Part shown: piece after piece, positions 46,351 to 54,117 of the stretch
Position numbering within the stretch: the first letter of the stretch is position 1
Layout of the letters: every line of letters starts with the position of its first letter
NCBI RefSeq assembly: GCF_016595525.1
Contig: NZ_JAENII010000002.1
Coordinates: 310,001-374,000 of the forward strand
DNA: 64,000 bases
Origin: Haloferula rosea
Lineage (GTDB): Bacteria > Verrucomicrobiota > Verrucomicrobiia > Verrucomicrobiales > Akkermansiaceae
Reading direction: 5' to 3'
The notes under the pieces: generated by a model
What the model was told of the DNA's origin: nothing
Database searches by the model: none
The model's input: only the letters and a program-made list of their open reading frames with translations
Position numbers and translations under genes: made by a program

Positions 46351-47865
46351 ATGAAATCGAAACGAGTGGTGATTGTAGGGGCTGGGCCCGGTGGTTTAAC
46401 GGCGGGAATGATTCTCGCCAGTCGGGGTCTGGACGTGACGATCGTCGAGAAGCAGGACCGCGTCGGAGGACGGAACGCAGAACTCAAGGTTGGCGACTTC
46501 TCGTTTGATACGGGACCGACCTTTCTGCACCAGAAATTCACCCTCGACGAGGTGTTTGCGGAGGCCGGCCGCAAGCCCGAGGACTACATGGAACTCGTCC
46601 AGCTTGATCCGATGACTCGGCTCACCTGGGGGGATGTGTCGATGGAGACCACGTGCGACCTCGAAAAGATGGCGTCCAACATGGAGGCCGCGTTCCCGGG
46701 CAGCAGCGAGGGTTACAGGCGCTTCATGGACGACCACGCGTCGAAGCTGAAGGCGATCTTCCCGTGCCTGCAGCGGCCCTATCACAAGCTCGGTTCCTTC
46801 CTCAGCAGCAGCCTCGTGAAGGCCGTGCCGTATGTGGCGACCGCCAAGTCCGTCGTGGACGTGCTGGAGGACTATTTTCCGGATGATCGGCTCAAGCTGG
46901 CATTCACCTTCCAAGCGAAATATCTCGGCATGTCCCCGTGGAAGTGCCCGGCTCTCTTCAGCATTCTGTCTTACTTGGAGTATCGCTACGGCATCTACCA
47001 CGTGCAGGGTGGTCTGTGCAAAATCTCCGACGGCATGGCCGAGGTCTTCAAGGAGCATGGCGGAACGCTGAGGTTGAATTGCCCGGTGAAGGAACTGCGC
47101 TTCGACGGCTCGCGGGTCTCCGGCGTCCTGTTGGAAGATGGCGAGTTGCTTGAGTGCGACGATGCGATCGTGAATGCCGACTATGCCCATGCCATGAGCA
47201 ACATGATGAATGGCAGGTCCCAACCCGCCGCCCAGTTGGGCAAGAAGAAGTATTCCTGCTCCACCTTCATGCTCTACCTCGGTCTGGACAAGATCTACGA
47301 GGACGAGGCGCACCACCACATCATCTTCGCGGATGACTACCACCAGAATGTGGCCGACATCCAGGGTGAGCGGGTGGTTTCCGACGACATGTCGGTTTAC
47401 ATCCGGAACTCAAGCATCACGGATCCGCTGGTGGCCCCGGAGGGCCAATCCGGCCTCTACATTCTGGTTCCCACCATCAATTGTCGCCATGGACACGACT
47501 GGGAGGAAACCAAGCAGATTTACCGCGACAAGGTCCTGGACCGGATCGAGGCGCGGACCGGGATGAAGGATCTGCGCGAGCACATCATCGAAGAGCGGAT
47601 CATCACGCCGGATGGGTGGAGGGATCAACTCGATGTCTTCATGGGAGCGACCTTCAACCTCGCCCACACGCTCGATCAGATGCTCTACCTGCGCCCTCAC
47701 AACCGGATGAAGGGCTACGAGAACCTTTACCTTGTGGGTGGTGGCACGCATCCGGGAAGTGGCCTCCCAACGATCTACGAGAGTGGTCGTATTTCTTCCA
47801 ATCTCCTGTGTGACAGCCGTAGAGTTGCCTACGACCGGGTGGATCTGGCGTCCGAATACCTTTAA
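46351..47865 (+). CDS. CrtI-family carotenoid desaturase/oxidase (CrtN/CrtP-like), first copy
   Basis: The frame opens at 46333, but ATG 46351 follows an AAGGA ribosome site at good spacing and begins directly with the FAD-binding fold (KRVVIVGAGPGGLTAGMILASRG, VEKQDRVGGRN). 504 residues. The C-terminal YLVGGGTHPGSGLPTIYESG is the signature of phytoene-desaturase-like oxidoreductases. Next to aldH, crtP-, crtQ- and crtO-like genes, it probably desaturates or oxidises a C30 backbone (squalene or diapophytoene). Whether it is the desaturase (CrtN) or the terminal methyl oxidase (CrtP) cannot be told from sequence alone. It converges on aldH. Confidence 0.88.
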   Translation: MKSKRVVIVGAGPGGLTAGMILASRGLDVTIVEKQDRVGGRNAELKVGDFSFDTGPTFLHQKFTLDEVFAEAGRKPEDYMELVQLDPMTRLTWGDVSMETTCDLEKMASNMEAAFPGSSEGYRRFMDDHASKLKAIFPCLQRPYHKLGSFLSSSLVKAVPYVATAKSVVDVLEDYFPDDRLKLAFTFQAKYLGMSPWKCPALFSILSYLEYRYGIYHVQGGLCKISDGMAEVFKEHGGTLRLNCPVKELRFDGSRVSGVLLEDGELLECDDAIVNADYAHAMSNMMNGRSQPAAQLGKKKYSCSTFMLYLGLDKIYEDEAHHHIIFADDYHQNVADIQGERVVSDDMSVYIRNSSITDPLVAPEGQSGLYILVPTINCRHGHDWEETKQIYRDKVLDRIEARTGMKDLREHIIEERIITPDGWRDQLDVFMGATFNLAHTLDQMLYLRPHNRMKGYENLYLVGGGTHPGSGLPTIYESGRISSNLLCDSRRVAYDRVDLASEYL

Positions 47866-47881
47866 TGGGTTCGGCGCCGTC

Positions 47882-49285
47882 CTACTTCAGGAATTTTCTC
47901 AGAGTATTGAGGATATCTCCGTAGGGAGGTCGGGCCTCAAACGGGTCAGGAAATGAGAATCGGCGGGTTACCGGGCGTTCCGCGGTGAATGTCTCGAAGC
48001 TGGCTCGTCCGCGGTATCGACCGTGCCCGCTGGCGCCCACGCCACCGAATGGGAGGTCCAGATTGATGGCCTGTTTCATGACGTCATTGACGCACACCGA
48101 TCCGGATGGGATCCGATCAATCGCCTCCTGAATGAACTTTTCACTGTCGGAGAACAAATAGAGAGCGAGTGGGGAGGGCAATTGGCGGAGCTGCTCGAGG
48201 CATGCCGACCGGTCCGGGTAGGGAACGATGGGGAGGAGCGGGCCGAAGACTTCCTCCTTCATGCAGGGTGCTTCCCAATCGACGACTGCCCAACGGGGAG
48301 CCATCCGAAGTTGGTCGGGGTCATCCTCGCCAATCTGTCTGGCGTCATGGGGAATGAGCCCCTGGAGGCGGTCCCAATGCGAGGCATTCGGCAGGTTGGC
48401 CAACTCGGGTGGACCGCTGCCATAGGATTGGTCGATCGCACTCTCGAGCTTCGATGAGAATTCGTGGAGAAGGAAGTCCGGGACCATGACGAAGTCGGGG
48501 GCCACACAGGTCTGGCCGGCATTGAAAAACTTGGCCGCCACGATGCGCTTCACCGCCAGATCGAGGTCGCAACTCCAGTCGATGAAAGCCGGGCATTTCC
48601 CGCCGAGCTCGAGGACGCAGGGAGCGAGTTCGCGGGCTGCCGCTTGTGCCACCAAGCGCCCGACCTTCTCGCCGCCGGTGTAGAAGTAGTGGTCGAATTT
48701 CTGTTCGAGCAGGGCCTGCCCGGTATCCGCGCCCCCGGTCACCACCGTGGCCAAGCTGGGGCTGACCGCCTCGGCGATCAGTTCGGCGAGGAGCTTGGAG
48801 GTGGCAGGTGAGGCCTCGGCAGGTTTAATGACGACACAGTTGCCTGCCGCGATAGCACCAATGGCCGGACTGAGGGCGAGTTGGAGCGGGTAGTTCCATG
48901 GCGCGACGACCAGGACCACGCCCAAGGGATCCCGCCGGACTTCGCTTCGGGCGGGGAGCAGGAAGATGGGGTGTTTGGCCCGCCGGGGTTTCATCCAGCC
49001 GGAGAGCTTGCGAAGCAACAGTCGGAGTTCCTGCTTCACGAAATAGATTTCAGACAACCACCCTTCGACGTGCGGTTTCCCGAGGTCCTCGGCCAAGGCC
49101 GCGATAAATTCGTCCTCCCGTCGCTCCAGACCGCTCAAAATCGCCTTCAGGGCATCCTTTCTTGCGGCGAGTGGATTGGTTTCTCCTTTCTCAAAGTGCC
49201 GACGCTGTGCATGAATGATTTCCTGAATTTGCGACGTCGAGAAAGGGTCGGTGATCTCATCTCCTCGTTTGCAAAGTTCGGACAT
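47882..49285 (-). CDS. Aldehyde dehydrogenase, candidate C30-carotenoid aldehyde oxidase
   Basis: NAD(P)-dependent aldehyde dehydrogenase of the class 3 (fatty aldehyde) type, 467 residues. Seen are VLVVAPWNYPLQL, IKPAEASPATS, YTGGEKVGRLV, catalytic Glu in LELGGK, and catalytic Cys in FFNAGQTCVAPDF. The C-terminal HGRYRGRASFETFT is also typical of this group. Set between two CrtI-family genes on the opposite strand, it is the expected enzyme for turning a diapocarotene aldehyde into a carotenoic acid, as AldH does in the staphyloxanthin pathway. It could also be a general fatty aldehyde dehydrogenase. Confidence 0.9.
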   Translation of the reverse strand: MSELCKRGDEITDPFSTSQIQEIIHAQRRHFEKGETNPLAARKDALKAILSGLERREDEFIAALAEDLGKPHVEGWLSEIYFVKQELRLLLRKLSGWMKPRRAKHPIFLLPARSEVRRDPLGVVLVVAPWNYPLQLALSPAIGAIAAGNCVVIKPAEASPATSKLLAELIAEAVSPSLATVVTGGADTGQALLEQKFDHYFYTGGEKVGRLVAQAAARELAPCVLELGGKCPAFIDWSCDLDLAVKRIVAAKFFNAGQTCVAPDFVMVPDFLLHEFSSKLESAIDQSYGSGPPELANLPNASHWDRLQGLIPHDARQIGEDDPDQLRMAPRWAVVDWEAPCMKEEVFGPLLPIVPYPDRSACLEQLRQLPSPLALYLFSDSEKFIQEAIDRIPSGSVCVNDVMKQAINLDLPFGGVGASGHGRYRGRASFETFTAERPVTRRFSFPDPFEARPPYGDILNTLRKFLK

Positions 49286-49338
49286 GGGTCGACTCTAGCA
49301 CATCAATGATTTTTGGCACCACCAGGTGCCCCCATATT
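49286..49338. promoter_or_regulatory. Divergent control region with hairpin between aldH and the second crtI-like gene
   Basis: The 53-base region between the two divergent starts contains a perfect GGCACC-ACCA-GGTGCC inverted repeat (49315-49330) preceded by five T. It lies 8 bases before the ATG at 49339, so it may be an operator or shape the 5' leader. No T-run follows it in either transcription direction, so a terminator is unlikely. Confidence 0.45.
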
Positions 49339-50847
49339 ATGGACACTTCGAAAGGCAAGGTAGTGGTGGTTGGCAGCGGACTGGGAGGATTGTCGGCAGC
49401 GATTTCGCTCCGGGCCGAAGGCTACGAAGTCGAAATCCTCGAGAAAAACGAGCGGATCGGGGGAAAGCTCAACGTTCGGGAGATGGAAGGATTCTCGTTC
49501 GATCTTGGACCCTCGATCTTCACGCTTCCCCAGATTTTCCGGGATTTGTTCGAGAGGGCTGGCAAGAGGATGGAGGACTACCTTGAGCTCCAACCCGTCA
49601 CGCCCCATTGGCGGAACGTGTTCGAGGACGGCAAGGTGATCGATCTCTATCAGGAGCCGGACCGGATGCGGGCAGAGCTCGACAAGTTGGATGGAGATGC
49701 CGAGGACCATTGGAAGGACTTCCAAGGGTTTCTGGACTACGCCCGTGGCCAGTATGAAATGGTCGACCGGGGCTACTTTGCCGAGGGTCTCGACAACACC
49801 TGGGAGATGATCCGGTTCTATGGGTTCTTCGGTCTCGGCCGCGGGATGGACTGGAAGAATACGATGTCCGGGTCGATCGAGCAGCATTTCCGGAGTGAGC
49901 ACATGCGGCGGATCTTCGAGTATTTCATCAAGTATGTGGGGTCATCGGCGCTCGATGCGCCGGGCTACATGAACATGATGCCGATCATCCAGTTCGACTA
50001 CGGACTGTGGTATGTGAGAGACGGCATGTACAACCTGGCGAAAGGCCTCGGAAAGCTTCTCGATGACCTTGGAATCCCGGTGCGTCTCGACACCCACGTC
50101 CGTGAGATCTCCAAAGAAGGAAGCAAGGTGACCGGCGTGGTTCTGGATGGAGGTGTCCGGGTTCCTGCGGATTTCGTGGTTTGCAACATGGAGGTGATTC
50201 CCGCTTATAAGCATCTGCTGAACGAGTCACCGCGTTTTCTGAAGAAGCTCGAGCGCTTCAAGCCTGCCTGCTCGGGTCTGGTCATTCACCTTGGAACTGA
50301 CCGGGTGTATCCGGAATTGGCCCACCACAATTTCTTCTTCTCGAAGGATCAGAAGAAGCACTTCAACACCGTGTTCCAGAAAGGACAGCTGCCTGATGAT
50401 CCGACGATCTACCTCGTGGCCCCGACCCGGACGGATCCCTCCAAGGCTCCCGAGGGATGCGACAACATCAAGATCCTGCCCCACATCCCGCCGATCGATC
50501 CCGAGAACCCCCTGACTCACGAGGACTATCTGGGTCTCCGGGAGCGGGTTCTCGACAAGTTGGAGCGGATGGGGCTCACCGATTTGCGCAAGCATACCGT
50601 GGTGGAGGACATGCTCACCCCGCTCGACATCGAGAGCATGTATCTCTCCAACCAAGGGTCGATCTACGGGGTGGTCAGCGACTGGAAGCGGAACCGCGCC
50701 TTCAAGGCACCCAAGCAGAGCAAGAAGTACCGCAACCTGTTCTTCACTGGAGGGAGCGTGAATCCCGGCGGTGGAATGCCGATGGCGGTGCTTTGCGGTC
50801 AGAAGGTGAGTGACCGGCTGGTCAAATACGCGGGTAGTGTGCGGTGA
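49339..50847 (+). CDS. CrtI-family carotenoid desaturase/oxidase (CrtN/CrtP-like), second copy
   Basis: The frame opens at 49306, but ATG 49339 (MDTSKGKVVVVGSGLGGLSAA) starts at the FAD fold. 502 residues with GGKLNVREMEGFSFDLGPSIF near the N-terminus, SSALDAPGYMNMMPII, and the C-terminal NLFFTGGSVNPGGGMPMAVLCG. About as long as the first copy but clearly diverged from it, as CrtN and CrtP are. It overlaps the downstream glycosyltransferase by four bases (GTGA), so oxidation and glycosylation steps are co-translated. I take it as the partner oxidase or desaturase of the C30 pathway. Confidence 0.88.
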   Translation: MDTSKGKVVVVGSGLGGLSAAISLRAEGYEVEILEKNERIGGKLNVREMEGFSFDLGPSIFTLPQIFRDLFERAGKRMEDYLELQPVTPHWRNVFEDGKVIDLYQEPDRMRAELDKLDGDAEDHWKDFQGFLDYARGQYEMVDRGYFAEGLDNTWEMIRFYGFFGLGRGMDWKNTMSGSIEQHFRSEHMRRIFEYFIKYVGSSALDAPGYMNMMPIIQFDYGLWYVRDGMYNLAKGLGKLLDDLGIPVRLDTHVREISKEGSKVTGVVLDGGVRVPADFVVCNMEVIPAYKHLLNESPRFLKKLERFKPACSGLVIHLGTDRVYPELAHHNFFFSKDQKKHFNTVFQKGQLPDDPTIYLVAPTRTDPSKAPEGCDNIKILPHIPPIDPENPLTHEDYLGLRERVLDKLERMGLTDLRKHTVVEDMLTPLDIESMYLSNQGSIYGVVSDWKRNRAFKAPKQSKKYRNLFFTGGSVNPGGGMPMAVLCGQKVSDRLVKYAGSVR

Positions 50848-51950
50848 CGGACGCAACGGGCATTGTGGCATGGATCGGGGCGGCGCTCGCAGTCGTTTCG
50901 ATGGCCTTGCTTTTCGCCAGATTGCGTCGTTTGCCGCGGCAAGACACAGCGTCGGGTGAACTGCCGCGTGTCTCGATTGTCATTCCCGCACGGGACGAGG
51001 AGCAGAACCTGTCCCGGCTTCTGCCATCCCTCGGGCGGCAGACGGTGCCGCCCCATGAGGTGATCGTGGTGGATGACCAGTCCTCGGACGGGACGGCCGA
51101 AATGGTCCAGACTCATGGCGCGCGATTGATCCGGGGGCGAGAGCTGCGATCAGGGTGGTATGGGAAGCCCTGGGCTTGTCATCAGGGGGTCGAAGCTTCG
51201 ACCGGGGACTGGCTGTTGTTCCTCGACGCGGATGTGGAACTGGAGGCCGACGCCCTCGAGCGGCTTCTTTCGGCCGCAGCAGCAGAGCCCGGTGCGGTAT
51301 TTTCGGTCTGCCCGTGGCATCGTATCGAGCGTGCTTATGAAGAGCTGTCGGTATTCTTCAATCTTCTCATGGTTGGTGGGATCGGTGCCTTCACGTGGCG
51401 TGGTGATCAGGCGACGGGGATCGGTCTGTTTGGTCAGACATTTCTGGTTTCAAGGAAACGCTATGGTGAACTGGGTGGCCATGAGGCGGTGAAGCAGACG
51501 GTTCTGGAGAACCTGAAGTTGGCCAAGAAGTGTGAGGAACTGGGTATTCCCCGGAGATGTTTCGTCGGACGCGGGAGCATCTCGATGCGGATGTTTCCCG
51601 GCGGATACCGTGAAATGGTGGAGAGCTGGGCGAAGGGCTTCAGTTCCGGCGCGGCTCTGGCATCGCCTGCAGCCCTGCTGCTGGCCTCCCTGTGGTTGAC
51701 GGGATTGATGATGGTGACCGTGTGCGTGTTCCTTCTGGTGGTCTGGGACGCTCGCGTGATGGTGGGGGCGGCCTATCTCGCGGTGGCCATCCCAACGGCC
51801 ATTCTCTTCCGGCAGGTCGGACGTTTCTCGGTCGTGAACGCGTTGTTGTTCCCGGTCAGTCTGCTGTTCTATCAGGGCCTGTTTGCCGTTGCTGTGATGA
51901 GGAAACGCAAGAAGGTGTCAACTTCGTGGAAGGGCCGCCATGTGGATTGA
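50844..51950 (+). CDS. crtQ: GT2 glycosyltransferase, CrtQ-like (carotenoid acid glycosylation)
   Basis: 368 residues: an N-terminal membrane helix (about 5-25), a GT-A domain (about 40-260) with VSIVIPARDEEQNLSRLLPSL, VIVVDDQSSDGTAEM, and the metal-binding LFLDADVELE, and two or three C-terminal helices (about 270-355). This layout matches CrtQ, which esterifies a C30 carotenoic acid to a sugar (glucose in Staphylococcus). It is coupled to the upstream CrtI-like gene by a GTGA overlap and overlaps the CrtO-like gene by 11 bases. The sugar donor is not readable. Confidence 0.82.
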   Translation: MTDATGIVAWIGAALAVVSMALLFARLRRLPRQDTASGELPRVSIVIPARDEEQNLSRLLPSLGRQTVPPHEVIVVDDQSSDGTAEMVQTHGARLIRGRELRSGWYGKPWACHQGVEASTGDWLLFLDADVELEADALERLLSAAAAEPGAVFSVCPWHRIERAYEELSVFFNLLMVGGIGAFTWRGDQATGIGLFGQTFLVSRKRYGELGGHEAVKQTVLENLKLAKKCEELGIPRRCFVGRGSISMRMFPGGYREMVESWAKGFSSGAALASPAALLLASLWLTGLMMVTVCVFLLVVWDARVMVGAAYLAVAIPTAILFRQVGRFSVVNALLFPVSLLFYQGLFAVAVMRKRKKVSTSWKGRHVD

Positions 51951-52431
51951 TCTCCCCATGCTCTGGATCGGGCTGCTGAACGGCTTGGGAATCCCTGCTG
52001 CCCATCTCGGAGTGTCATGGATCTTCACGCGCATGCCCTTGGCGTGGTTCCATCCCTCATGGTTTCCCTTCGCGGCTTTTCCCGGAGAGACTCGGGGACT
52101 CTATGATCGTCTTTTCCGGGTCAAATCGTGGAAAGGCGCCATCCCGGATGCTGGTCCATGGTTCGGGGGATTTGCGAAGAAGCGGCTGCGCAGCTCGGAC
52201 CGGGAATTTACCGAGCGATTTGTTGCGGAGACTTGCCGCAGTGAAGCTGCCCACTGGGTCCAGTGCCTGGTGATCATTGGGTTTGTCGTGTGGACACCGA
52301 TGCCATGGGCATGGGTGATCCTTGCCTATGCGCCACTGTCCAACCTCCCGTGCATTGTCCTTCAGCGGCAGAATCGGCTCCGGCTCGCCGGGATTCTGAG
52401 GCGGCTGGAAGGGGACAAAGCATCCTCTTGA
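51940..52431 (+). CDS. crtO: Glycosyl-diaponeurosporenoate acyltransferase-like protein, CrtO
   Basis: 163 residues, integral membrane: helices at about 7-28 and two in the C-terminal half (about 105-135). It carries the CrtO pattern RVKSWKGAIPDAGPWFGGFAKKRL, RFVAETCRSEAAHWVQC and LPCIVLQRQNRLRL (key parts: WKGAIPDAG, ETCRSEAAHW, LPCIVLQRQNR). CrtO acylates the sugar of the glycosyl carotenoate, the last step of staphyloxanthin synthesis. It overlaps the crtQ-like gene by 11 bases. This small, distinctive family makes the reading of the whole cluster much stronger. Confidence 0.85.
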   Translation: MWIDLPMLWIGLLNGLGIPAAHLGVSWIFTRMPLAWFHPSWFPFAAFPGETRGLYDRLFRVKSWKGAIPDAGPWFGGFAKKRLRSSDREFTERFVAETCRSEAAHWVQCLVIIGFVVWTPMPWAWVILAYAPLSNLPCIVLQRQNRLRLAGILRRLEGDKASS

Positions 52432-52445
52432 TCAATTCGAGATTC

Positions 52446-53036
52446 ATGGGAAGCTTGGCTGTGATTTTCAAGTGGATGGTCATTTTCCTGCTCGCTGCAG
52501 GTGGATTGCGGGCCGACGACGTGTCGGACTACCGCGAGTGGCATGAGAAGTGTCTGGCCACCGATGATGCGAAGGTCATCGACGGCTACATCGGGAGATT
52601 TCAGGCCAGATTCGATGCTGACCCGTCAGACCAGCTGGCCAAAGTCTATCTGGGGTCGGCCTATACCCTGCGATCAGCGGCCAGCGGTTGGGGACCGAAG
52701 AAGCTGGAGTATCTGAAGAAGGGCGGACGCCTGATGGATGAGGCCGCCGGTGCCGCCTGGCACAACCCGAGGGTGAGGTTCCTTCGCGGTGCGAATGGCT
52801 ACAAGGTGCCGAAGCGCTTCAACCGTCGGCCGGTCGCGGTCGAGGACTTCACCTACCTGATGCCCATCGCCATCAAGGGGGGGCATGGCTTGAAGCTCCG
52901 TGAGCGACAGGCGATGCTCTATTACGCATGGAGGACTTTTGATGAAGAAGGGCACAAGGAAATGGCGACTCAAGCCCGGACTCATTGCCACCAGCTCGAT
53001 CCTTCATCGTGGTATGGGAAAGAGGCAGGCAAGTAG
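52446..53036 (+). CDS. Secreted helical protein of unknown function
   Basis: The frame opens at 52263 inside the crtO-like gene, but ATG 52446 gives a signal peptide (about 1-23, MVIFLLAAGGLRADD) and a 196-residue product. The mature part is TPR-like: FDADPSDQLAKVYLGSAYTLRS, GPKKLEYLKKGGRLMDEAAG, NPRVRFLRGANGYKVPKRFN, then REQ-type helices near MLYYAWRTF. Similar helical exported proteins of unknown role occur in Bacteroidota. Located 14 bases after the crtO-like gene, probably in the same transcript. Confidence 0.7.
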   Translation: MGSLAVIFKWMVIFLLAAGGLRADDVSDYREWHEKCLATDDAKVIDGYIGRFQARFDADPSDQLAKVYLGSAYTLRSAASGWGPKKLEYLKKGGRLMDEAAGAAWHNPRVRFLRGANGYKVPKRFNRRPVAVEDFTYLMPIAIKGGHGLKLRERQAMLYYAWRTFDEEGHKEMATQARTHCHQLDPSSWYGKEAGK

Positions 53037-53079: not shown

Positions 53080-54117
53080 ATGAGTGAGACCACCAAGCGG
53101 CGTGGCCTTTCCCAGTGGCTCGGCATCGTGGTGGTGCTGGGCCTGCTTGCCCTGCTATTGCGGCATGTGGAGTGGGATGCTGTCCGGGCCAGCTTCTCCA
53201 AGGTCGATCTGAGGTTCATCCCGGTTCTGGTTTTCCTGGTGGCCCTCAATTTTCTGATCAGGAGCTGGCGTTGGAGGTATCTGCTCGTCGGAGGTGAATC
53301 GATGTCGTTCCGGTCTCTGGTGGATGCCACCACGGCGGGTTTCATGGCGTCCTTTCTTCTACCGTTTCGTGCCGGGGAAGTCGCCCGTCCGTGGGTGCTC
53401 ACCCGCTGGGAGTCGATCAGTTTTGGCTCGGCGGCCGCAAGCATCGTGGTTGAGCGGGTCATCGATGCCCTCGTCATCATCGGGGTCCTGTCGATTGCGG
53501 CTGAGTGGATCGTCGATGCCCCCGACTGGCTTGGTGCCGGGACCAGGGTTCTGGGTCTGATTGCCTTGGTCGGTTTGGCGATGATGCTGATGGCCTACTT
53601 CTTCAGTCGGACCTTTTCGAAGCTGGGGCGGAGGATGATTCGGGTGTTCTTGTTTCCCCGGTTCCTGTCGGGACTGCGGAATGCGCTCTATCAACTGATG
53701 GATGGGTTCCTCGACGGGCTGAAGGCCATCTCAAGCGGTCGGCAGTTGTGGATCGTGATGATCACCTCGCTGGCCTTGTGGCTGGAAATGGCCGTTTTCT
53801 ATCAGGTGTGTCTGTGGACCCTCGGCCTCCAGCTCAGCCCGCTGGCGGGTATCATGGTGATGGTGTTGGTTGCCCTTGCGATTGCGGCCCCAGGACCGCC
53901 GGGTTTCCTCGGGACGTTTCAGATCGGGTGTCTGGCTGCCCTCGGACTGTTTGGGGTAAACCGTGAGATGGGCCTTTCGTATGCCGTGGTTGCCCACGTG
54001 GTCCAAGCCGCCTGCATCATTCCTGCAGGTCTATGGATTCTGCATGCCCGTGGCCTGAAGCTTCGCGACTCGGTTCGATCGGCCCGTATGGCTCAGTCGG
54101 ATCCTGGAGATGCTTGA
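53080..54117 (+). CDS. Flippase-like membrane protein (UPF0104/LPG synthase TM domain)
   Basis: 345 residues with about eight membrane helices. Diagnostic segments are NFLIRSWRWRYLL, TTAGFMASFLLPFRAGEVARP, ERVIDALVIIGVL, PGPPGFLGTFQIGCL and the C-terminal AYAVVAHVVQ-like helix. This is the lysylphosphatidylglycerol synthetase transmembrane family without the synthetase domain, often seen with polyprenyl-lipid or glycolipid genes and thought to move lipids across the membrane. Position after the carotenoid cluster suggests a lipid or glycolipid role; the substrate is unknown. Confidence 0.85.
   Translation: MSETTKRRGLSQWLGIVVVLGLLALLLRHVEWDAVRASFSKVDLRFIPVLVFLVALNFLIRSWRWRYLLVGGESMSFRSLVDATTAGFMASFLLPFRAGEVARPWVLTRWESISFGSAAASIVVERVIDALVIIGVLSIAAEWIVDAPDWLGAGTRVLGLIALVGLAMMLMAYFFSRTFSKLGRRMIRVFLFPRFLSGLRNALYQLMDGFLDGLKAISSGRQLWIVMITSLALWLEMAVFYQVCLWTLGLQLSPLAGIMVMVLVALAIAAPGPPGFLGTFQIGCLAALGLFGVNREMGLSYAVVAHVVQAACIIPAGLWILHARGLKLRDSVRSARMAQSDPGDA

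Follow-up and report, generated by a model that had tools for sequence, protein, structure and literature searches.

A predicted C30 carotenoid-acid ester cluster in Haloferula rosea combines staphylococcal-type tailoring genes with a squalene-route-type desaturase

Methylobacterium extorquens AM1 makes an acyl-glucosyl diapolycopenedioate through CrtN, CrtP (also named CrtNb; PMC2889829), a glycosyltransferase and an acyltransferase, with squalene as the proposed precursor (PMC10448405). Methylomonas genomes carry crtN, crtNb and crtNc together with one SQS_PSY gene (PMC10745290), and Rubritalea, a Verrucomicrobium, produces both squalene and acyl-xylosyl diapolycopenedioates (PMC3967232); these sources are cited here and below from excerpts. 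Which genes would build such a pigment in a Verrucomicrobium? Our literature search, over sources of the same partial kind, returned no paper that assigns them, and a 2022 PNAS paper on the squalene route (Santana-Molina) may cover them. Here we describe a gene cluster of Haloferula rosea, of the family Akkermansiaceae, that lies in a 64,000-nucleotide window (contig NZ_JAENII010000002.1, C22 in our numbering, 310001-374000; coordinates below count from the first base of the window) of a 4.68 Mb genome that is 97.5% complete. We propose, with a probability of about 0.8, that the product of this cluster is a C30 carotenoid acid carrying an acylated sugar in ester linkage. A preliminary description of the window had read the locus as the source of a C30 carotenoid-acid ester pigment, and comparison with related sequences supports that reading.

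Genes of the cluster and the proposed pathway

The cluster opens on the forward strand with a crtN-like gene for a predicted C30 desaturase of the CrtI family (46351, or 46333, to 47865). A crtP-like (CrtNb) gene for a putative terminal-methyl oxidase of the same family follows on the same strand (49306, or the internal ATG at 49339, to 50847), and the aldehyde dehydrogenase gene aldH lies divergently between the two (47882-49285, reverse strand). Both CrtI proteins pass TIGR02734 (443.7 and 347.3 bits, respectively; cut-off 238.1), and AldH matches PF00171 with 256.6 bits. On the forward strand, crtP overlaps by 4 bases with a crtQ-like gene for a family 2 glycosyltransferase (50844-51950; PF00535, 91.4 bits), which in turn overlaps by 11 bases with a crtO-like gene for a putative glycosyl carotenoate acyltransferase (51940-52431; PF18927, 89.8 bits, cut-off 27.3). 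Open reading frames and domain models agree with the gene set that the preliminary description had placed at 46351-52431, and the coupled overlaps it had noted are present.

The two CrtI proteins have different affinities. In a maximum-likelihood tree of 38 rows, which replaced a 71-row tree that held very long rows, the window CrtP joins its Verrucomicrobial relatives and one Auribacterota metagenome-assembled genome (MAG), and together they form the sister group of staphylococcal CrtP (100/99), separate from alphaproteobacterial CrtP. The window CrtN clusters with the first CrtI protein of alphaproteobacterial C30-type clusters (100/100), and staphylococcal CrtN stands apart from it. The C40 CrtI proteins of Pantoea, Sphingobium and Roseobacter join CrtI-like proteins of two family genomes in another clade (100/100) that includes neither window protein; placement in a tree was a check that the preliminary description had proposed, and neither protein falls with C40 desaturases. 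The 38-row tree holds no long rows, and the 71-row tree agrees with it on CrtN and CrtP. By tblastn, the window CrtP reaches 46.2% identity to Staphylococcus plasmids, and its closest named loci are an Akkermansiaceae MAG (81%), Verrucomicrobiaceae bacterium E54 (75%) and four Roseibacillus records (65-73%), from a search that gave eight loci, one of which (L031; 33%, query residues 2-94) was set aside.

The tailoring genes add to this picture. Among five enzymes compared, those of Microvirga and Palleronia clusters score best against AldH (36-38% identity), and the protein carries the motifs LELGGKCP and NAGQTCVAP, whose Glu and Cys, respectively, we take to have their usual role in such enzymes. 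CrtQ was assigned from pairwise scores: 172-194 bits to Staphylococcus and Cytobacillus transferases versus 85-117 to four alphaproteobacterial ones, and its best NCBIfam matches, HpnB and CruG, both fall under cut-off. CrtO aligns with three staphylococcal CrtO proteins (26-29% identity). The preliminary description had recognised a CrtO pattern in ETCRSEAAHW and LPCIVLQRQNR, and both motifs contain columns that are invariant in 17 aligned CrtO proteins, three of them staphylococcal: E, R, E and H in the first, and P, C and the last R in the second. Judged by sequence, CrtP, CrtQ and CrtO are of staphylococcal type.

The pathway below is our inference from these genes in all its parts: each reaction, the squalene step included, as well as the sugar and the product. 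Farnesyl diphosphate (FPP) from an IspA-type synthase would be condensed head-to-head, most likely to squalene, by enzymes encoded outside the window, namely an HpnD-like enzyme, a divergent squalene/phytoene synthase (SQS/PSY) enzyme, or both. CrtN would desaturate the C30 chain, CrtP would oxidise its terminal methyls to aldehydes, and AldH would convert a terminal aldehyde to the acid, to which CrtQ would attach a sugar as an ester and CrtO a fatty acyl group on that sugar. Methylobacterium and Rubritalea suggest, by analogy, that 4,4'-diapolycopenedioic acid is the probable aglycone. The product might instead be the ester of a monoacid, as in staphyloxanthin, and the staphylococcal type of CrtP, CrtQ and CrtO would suit such a pigment; we consider this unlikely, as the desaturase is of the alphaproteobacterial type, the dioic acid is made by M. 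extorquens (PMC10448405), and Rubritalea makes dioic acid esters (PMC3967232).

Conservation in relatives

The identity, order, conservation and clade membership of these genes are established. Conservation was counted over 46 loci with a crtP of at least 50% identity; 47 had been entered, and one (L137, crtP 33%) was dropped. Four loci (L024-L027) were omitted because they share contigs with others (L141, L103, L109 and L110), those fetched through CrtO without a crtP match (L038, L040) or through crtN (L138-L140) stand outside the count, and one genome (G266) contributes two loci. Both crtQ and crtO lie 3' of crtP on the same strand in 39 of the 42 loci with more than 2.5 kb downstream, or in 32/35 once the seven loci fetched through CrtO are excluded. 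An aldH lies near crtP in 43 of the 45 loci with more than 2.5 kb upstream (divergent in 42/45), and crtN is found at most 6 kb from crtP in 30/46; two named Roseibacillus species hold crtN, aldH, crtP, crtQ and crtO in one place. The recurrence of this gene order in dozens of genomes places the cluster beyond chance. Across a sample of the phylum CrtO is rare (9/240 genomes).

In G272, crtN adjoins gluQRS, as it does in the window, and there is no close crtP; in G249, a family genome of the same genus, the locus dropped from the count holds crtN, aldH, crtP, a PF01553 acyltransferase and a glycosyltransferase, with no CrtO match. Both its crtN and its crtP group with alphaproteobacterial ones in the 38-row tree, as does the crtN of G234, and the alphaproteobacterial-type cluster of G249 points to transfer. 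Separately, crtN-like copies in two genomes (G286:C38 and G293:C91) appear as two separate matches, one of them with an in-frame TGA; either decay or an assembly error would explain this.

Source of the C30 backbone

Where does the C30 chain come from? A profile search found two PF00494 genes in the genome, on contigs C69 (L001) and C33 (L002), and none in the window, in keeping with the preliminary description, which had found no backbone synthase there. Its suggested genome search for crtM or hpnCDE gave two candidate C30 synthases, the opposite of the outcome that it had named as refuting: the C69 gene is HpnD-like and the C33 gene is a divergent SQS/PSY gene, and the genome showed no CrtM-clade gene and no good HpnC or HpnE. 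The C33 protein fits no model well (HpnD 73.4, HpnC 65.0 and squal_synth 63.1 bits) and forms its own deep clade, outside that of HpnC; among solved structures it best matches squalene synthases (farnesyl-diphosphate farnesyltransferase; E about 1e-7). For HpnC, the best scores in the genome are 151.2 bits, from the HpnD-like protein, and 65.0 bits, versus a cut-off of 250.45 and a Palleronia reference at 245.0. PF00494 occurs in 143 of the 145 family genomes sampled, mostly in two copies. A C69-type gene and its signal-peptidase neighbour lie directly 3' of crtPQO in G237, and about 3.7 kb 3' of it in G358, which suggests a link to the pathway; a distant relative of the C33 protein (28%) lies near crtP in G068.

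Several observations weigh against our proposal. The C69 protein scores 247.0 bits to HpnD, under the cut-off of 278.6 (the Palleronia HpnD reference, at 267.0, is also under it), and its grouping with alphaproteobacterial HpnD, apart from staphylococcal CrtM, has moderate support (81/87) in a synthase tree from which one short row (L165) was dropped. In that tree neither PF00494 gene groups with staphylococcal CrtM, and the best HpnE match in the genome reaches 65.5 bits, versus 277.7 and 236.9 for two reference proteins. The two synthase types are also present in family genomes that have no clear crtN or crtP, for example in genus g2, and thus cannot be taken as pigment-specific. In three crtP loci, crtQ and crtO are absent, 18 kb around the CrtO gene of G190 (L038), one of the nine CrtO-bearing genomes of the phylum sample, hold no crtP or crtN match, and the alphaproteobacterial reference clusters that stand in for M. 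extorquens are themselves uncharacterised.

The apparent lack of HpnE has to be read against strict thresholds. The two reference HpnE proteins, from Palleronia and Microvirga, fall under the HpnE cut-off of 283.05, as Palleronia HpnC and HpnD do under theirs; because curated cut-offs miss reference proteins, we did not go by them alone and also weighed scores and trees. None of the 145 family genomes holds an HpnE over the curated cut-off, in a search without positive control, as none of 14 control genomes passed either. The 65.5-bit match, on contig C11, was rejected as HpnE on account of its score and of its neighbour, a photolyase-related gene (PF04244). Weak HpnE matches of 63-111 bits, most over the whole model, occur in 44/145 family genomes, H. 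rosea not among them, and represent a family of flavin adenine dinucleotide (FAD) proteins. Four of these (L220-L223) are 59-77% alike; their similarity to the two reference HpnE is confined to short stretches (31-82 residues, but 242 for one pair), and at two of their four loci a neighbour gene recurs that is also present at the C11 locus. By coordinates, a weak HpnE match lies 3-3.5 kb from a crtN-like gene in G251 (C11:126720), G286 (C145:14175) and G336 (C2:8240); these FAD proteins could be divergent HpnE or something else.

The HpnD-like enzyme might also act as a CrtM and form dehydrosqualene (4,4'-diapophytoene) in one step, so that squalene would not be the precursor. Its best solved match is in fact named CrtM (8is6, E 1.2e-33), with entries for phytoene synthase, HpnC and dehydrosqualene synthase next in line, and HpnE, of which the genome has no good copy, is not needed in a CrtM-like route. 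The protein's grouping in the synthase tree speaks for HpnD, as does its score, which is near that of the Palleronia reference; moreover, the desaturase type of the window is found in Palleronia and Microvirga clusters with relatives of HpnC, HpnD and HpnE, and squalene is made by a Verrucomicrobial relative (PMC3967232). We regard the dehydrosqualene backbone as a tentative alternative, somewhat on the unlikely side, and favour squalene.

The prenyl chain bears on the length of the product. Of two prenyl synthases in the genome, one exceeds the cut-off of the FPP synthase model (359.0 bits versus 275) but not that of CrtE (341.7 versus 460), and the other passes no model and best fits long-chain synthases. 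No hopene cyclase scored over cut-off in the H. rosea genome, in the 145 family genomes or in any control genome. An FPP synthase, no CrtE over cut-off in the genome and no hopene cyclase over cut-off together fit a predicted C30 product. Some CrtI enzymes take both chain lengths, and the window proteins could in principle act on phytoene-derived chains in a C40 route; by coordinates, CrtB-like genes stand beside CrtI-like genes in four family genomes (G298, G330, G335 and G356; L211-L214, genus g3), apart from the C30 set. We hold a C40 route very unlikely, since the CrtI tree sets both window proteins apart from the C40 clade, no CrtE scores over cut-off, neither of the only two PF00494 genes falls in CrtB clades, and CrtP, CrtQ and CrtO make up a C30 tailoring set.

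Putative exported TPR proteins and comparison with known systems

Directly downstream, 14 bases 3' of crtO, the forward-strand gene at 52446-53036 encodes a putative exported protein of 196 amino acids with a tetratricopeptide repeat (TPR) fold, a gene that the preliminary description had overlooked. Relatives occur in 21 of the 145 family genomes, the window included: 18 immediately follow a crtN-like gene in the same orientation, two (the window and G337) lie after crtO, and one is a fragment located elsewhere (G344); a further relative is found outside the family, in the G228 cluster. The aligned proteins open with a hydrophobic stretch, in some resembling a lipoprotein signal (judged by eye). 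A Pfam search at E 1 found nothing for the window protein, and two relatives give weak TPR matches under cut-off. Its AlphaFold2 (AF2) model, built from three sequences, is all helical (mean predicted local distance difference test score, pLDDT, 84.4), and TPR proteins account for eight of the ten best Foldseek matches, counting MamA and PEX5 on the assumption that they belong there (TM-scores of 0.27-0.59 relative to the query; the lowest E is 6.2e-3, so that all stay above 0.001). The gene is a probable member of the cluster. The flippase-like LPG_synthase_TM gene that follows it on the same strand (53080-54117, assigned by domain model) was rejected as a member, since a scan of 59 loci at E 1e-4 revealed no homologue of it.

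A second, unlike TPR family lies between aldH and crtP in three loci (L126:10390-11229, L127:7117-7950 and L037:12161-12910), with 38-48% mutual identity and TPR models over cut-off, and has a weak relative (24-31%) in L033; the Palleronia, Azospirillum and Gluconobacter clusters hold a DUF2141 protein. We would guess that the TPR proteins take part in placing the pigment. A fuller scenario, in which members of the Akkermansiaceae make squalene from FPP without HpnE, through the HpnD-like and divergent SQS/PSY enzymes, convert it to an acyl-glycosyl C30 carotenoid, and use two unlike exported TPR families to escort or anchor the pigment outside the inner membrane, strikes us as improbable when taken whole.

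For a class of pigment already known from a Verrucomicrobium, these results assign candidate genes that can be tested, and they raise the questions of how a C30 chain is formed without a recognisable HpnE and what exported TPR proteins do at these clusters. Compared with known systems, the cluster is, on present sequence comparisons, a hybrid in which staphylococcal-type tailoring is joined to squalene-route-type desaturation. Lacking the CrtM of the staphyloxanthin type and the HpnC and HpnE of the squalene type, it appears to be a variant that works like both and is a member of neither. The preliminary description had likened it to the staphyloxanthin route, which holds for the types of CrtP, CrtQ and CrtO; unlike staphylococcal crtOPQMN, which runs O-P-Q-M-N on plasmids of S. 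xylosus, S. equorum and S. pasteuri, the H. rosea system has no CrtM-clade gene and a CrtN from outside the staphylococcal clade, and adds aldH and the exported TPR gene.

The other comparisons rest on the excerpts cited. M. extorquens AM1 shares the logic of CrtN, CrtP, glycosyltransferase and acyltransferase, and also the desaturase clade, in which Microvirga and others represent it; there, squalene is the product of HpnCDE, the acyltransferase goes under the name of lysophospholipid acyltransferase where that of H. rosea is of CrtO type, and two AldH candidates were deleted without effect, whereas here aldH lies in the cluster (PMC10448405). Methylomonas likewise has CrtN, CrtNb/CrtP and an aldehyde-oxidising gene with no crtM or hpnCDE described, but its one SQS_PSY gene stands beside a squalene-hopene cyclase, whereas H. 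rosea has two such genes and no cyclase over cut-off (PMC10745290). Planctopirus limnophila also makes C30 carotenoids via squalene, there through HpnCDE, in contrast to the lack of a good HpnE here (Santana-Molina 2022, as related in PMC12078418 and PMC10448405). Rubritalea squalenifaciens, with its diapolycopenedioic acid xylosyl esters, shares the phylum, the likely product class and the making of squalene; its pigments are known there from chemistry, without assigned genes (PMC3967232).

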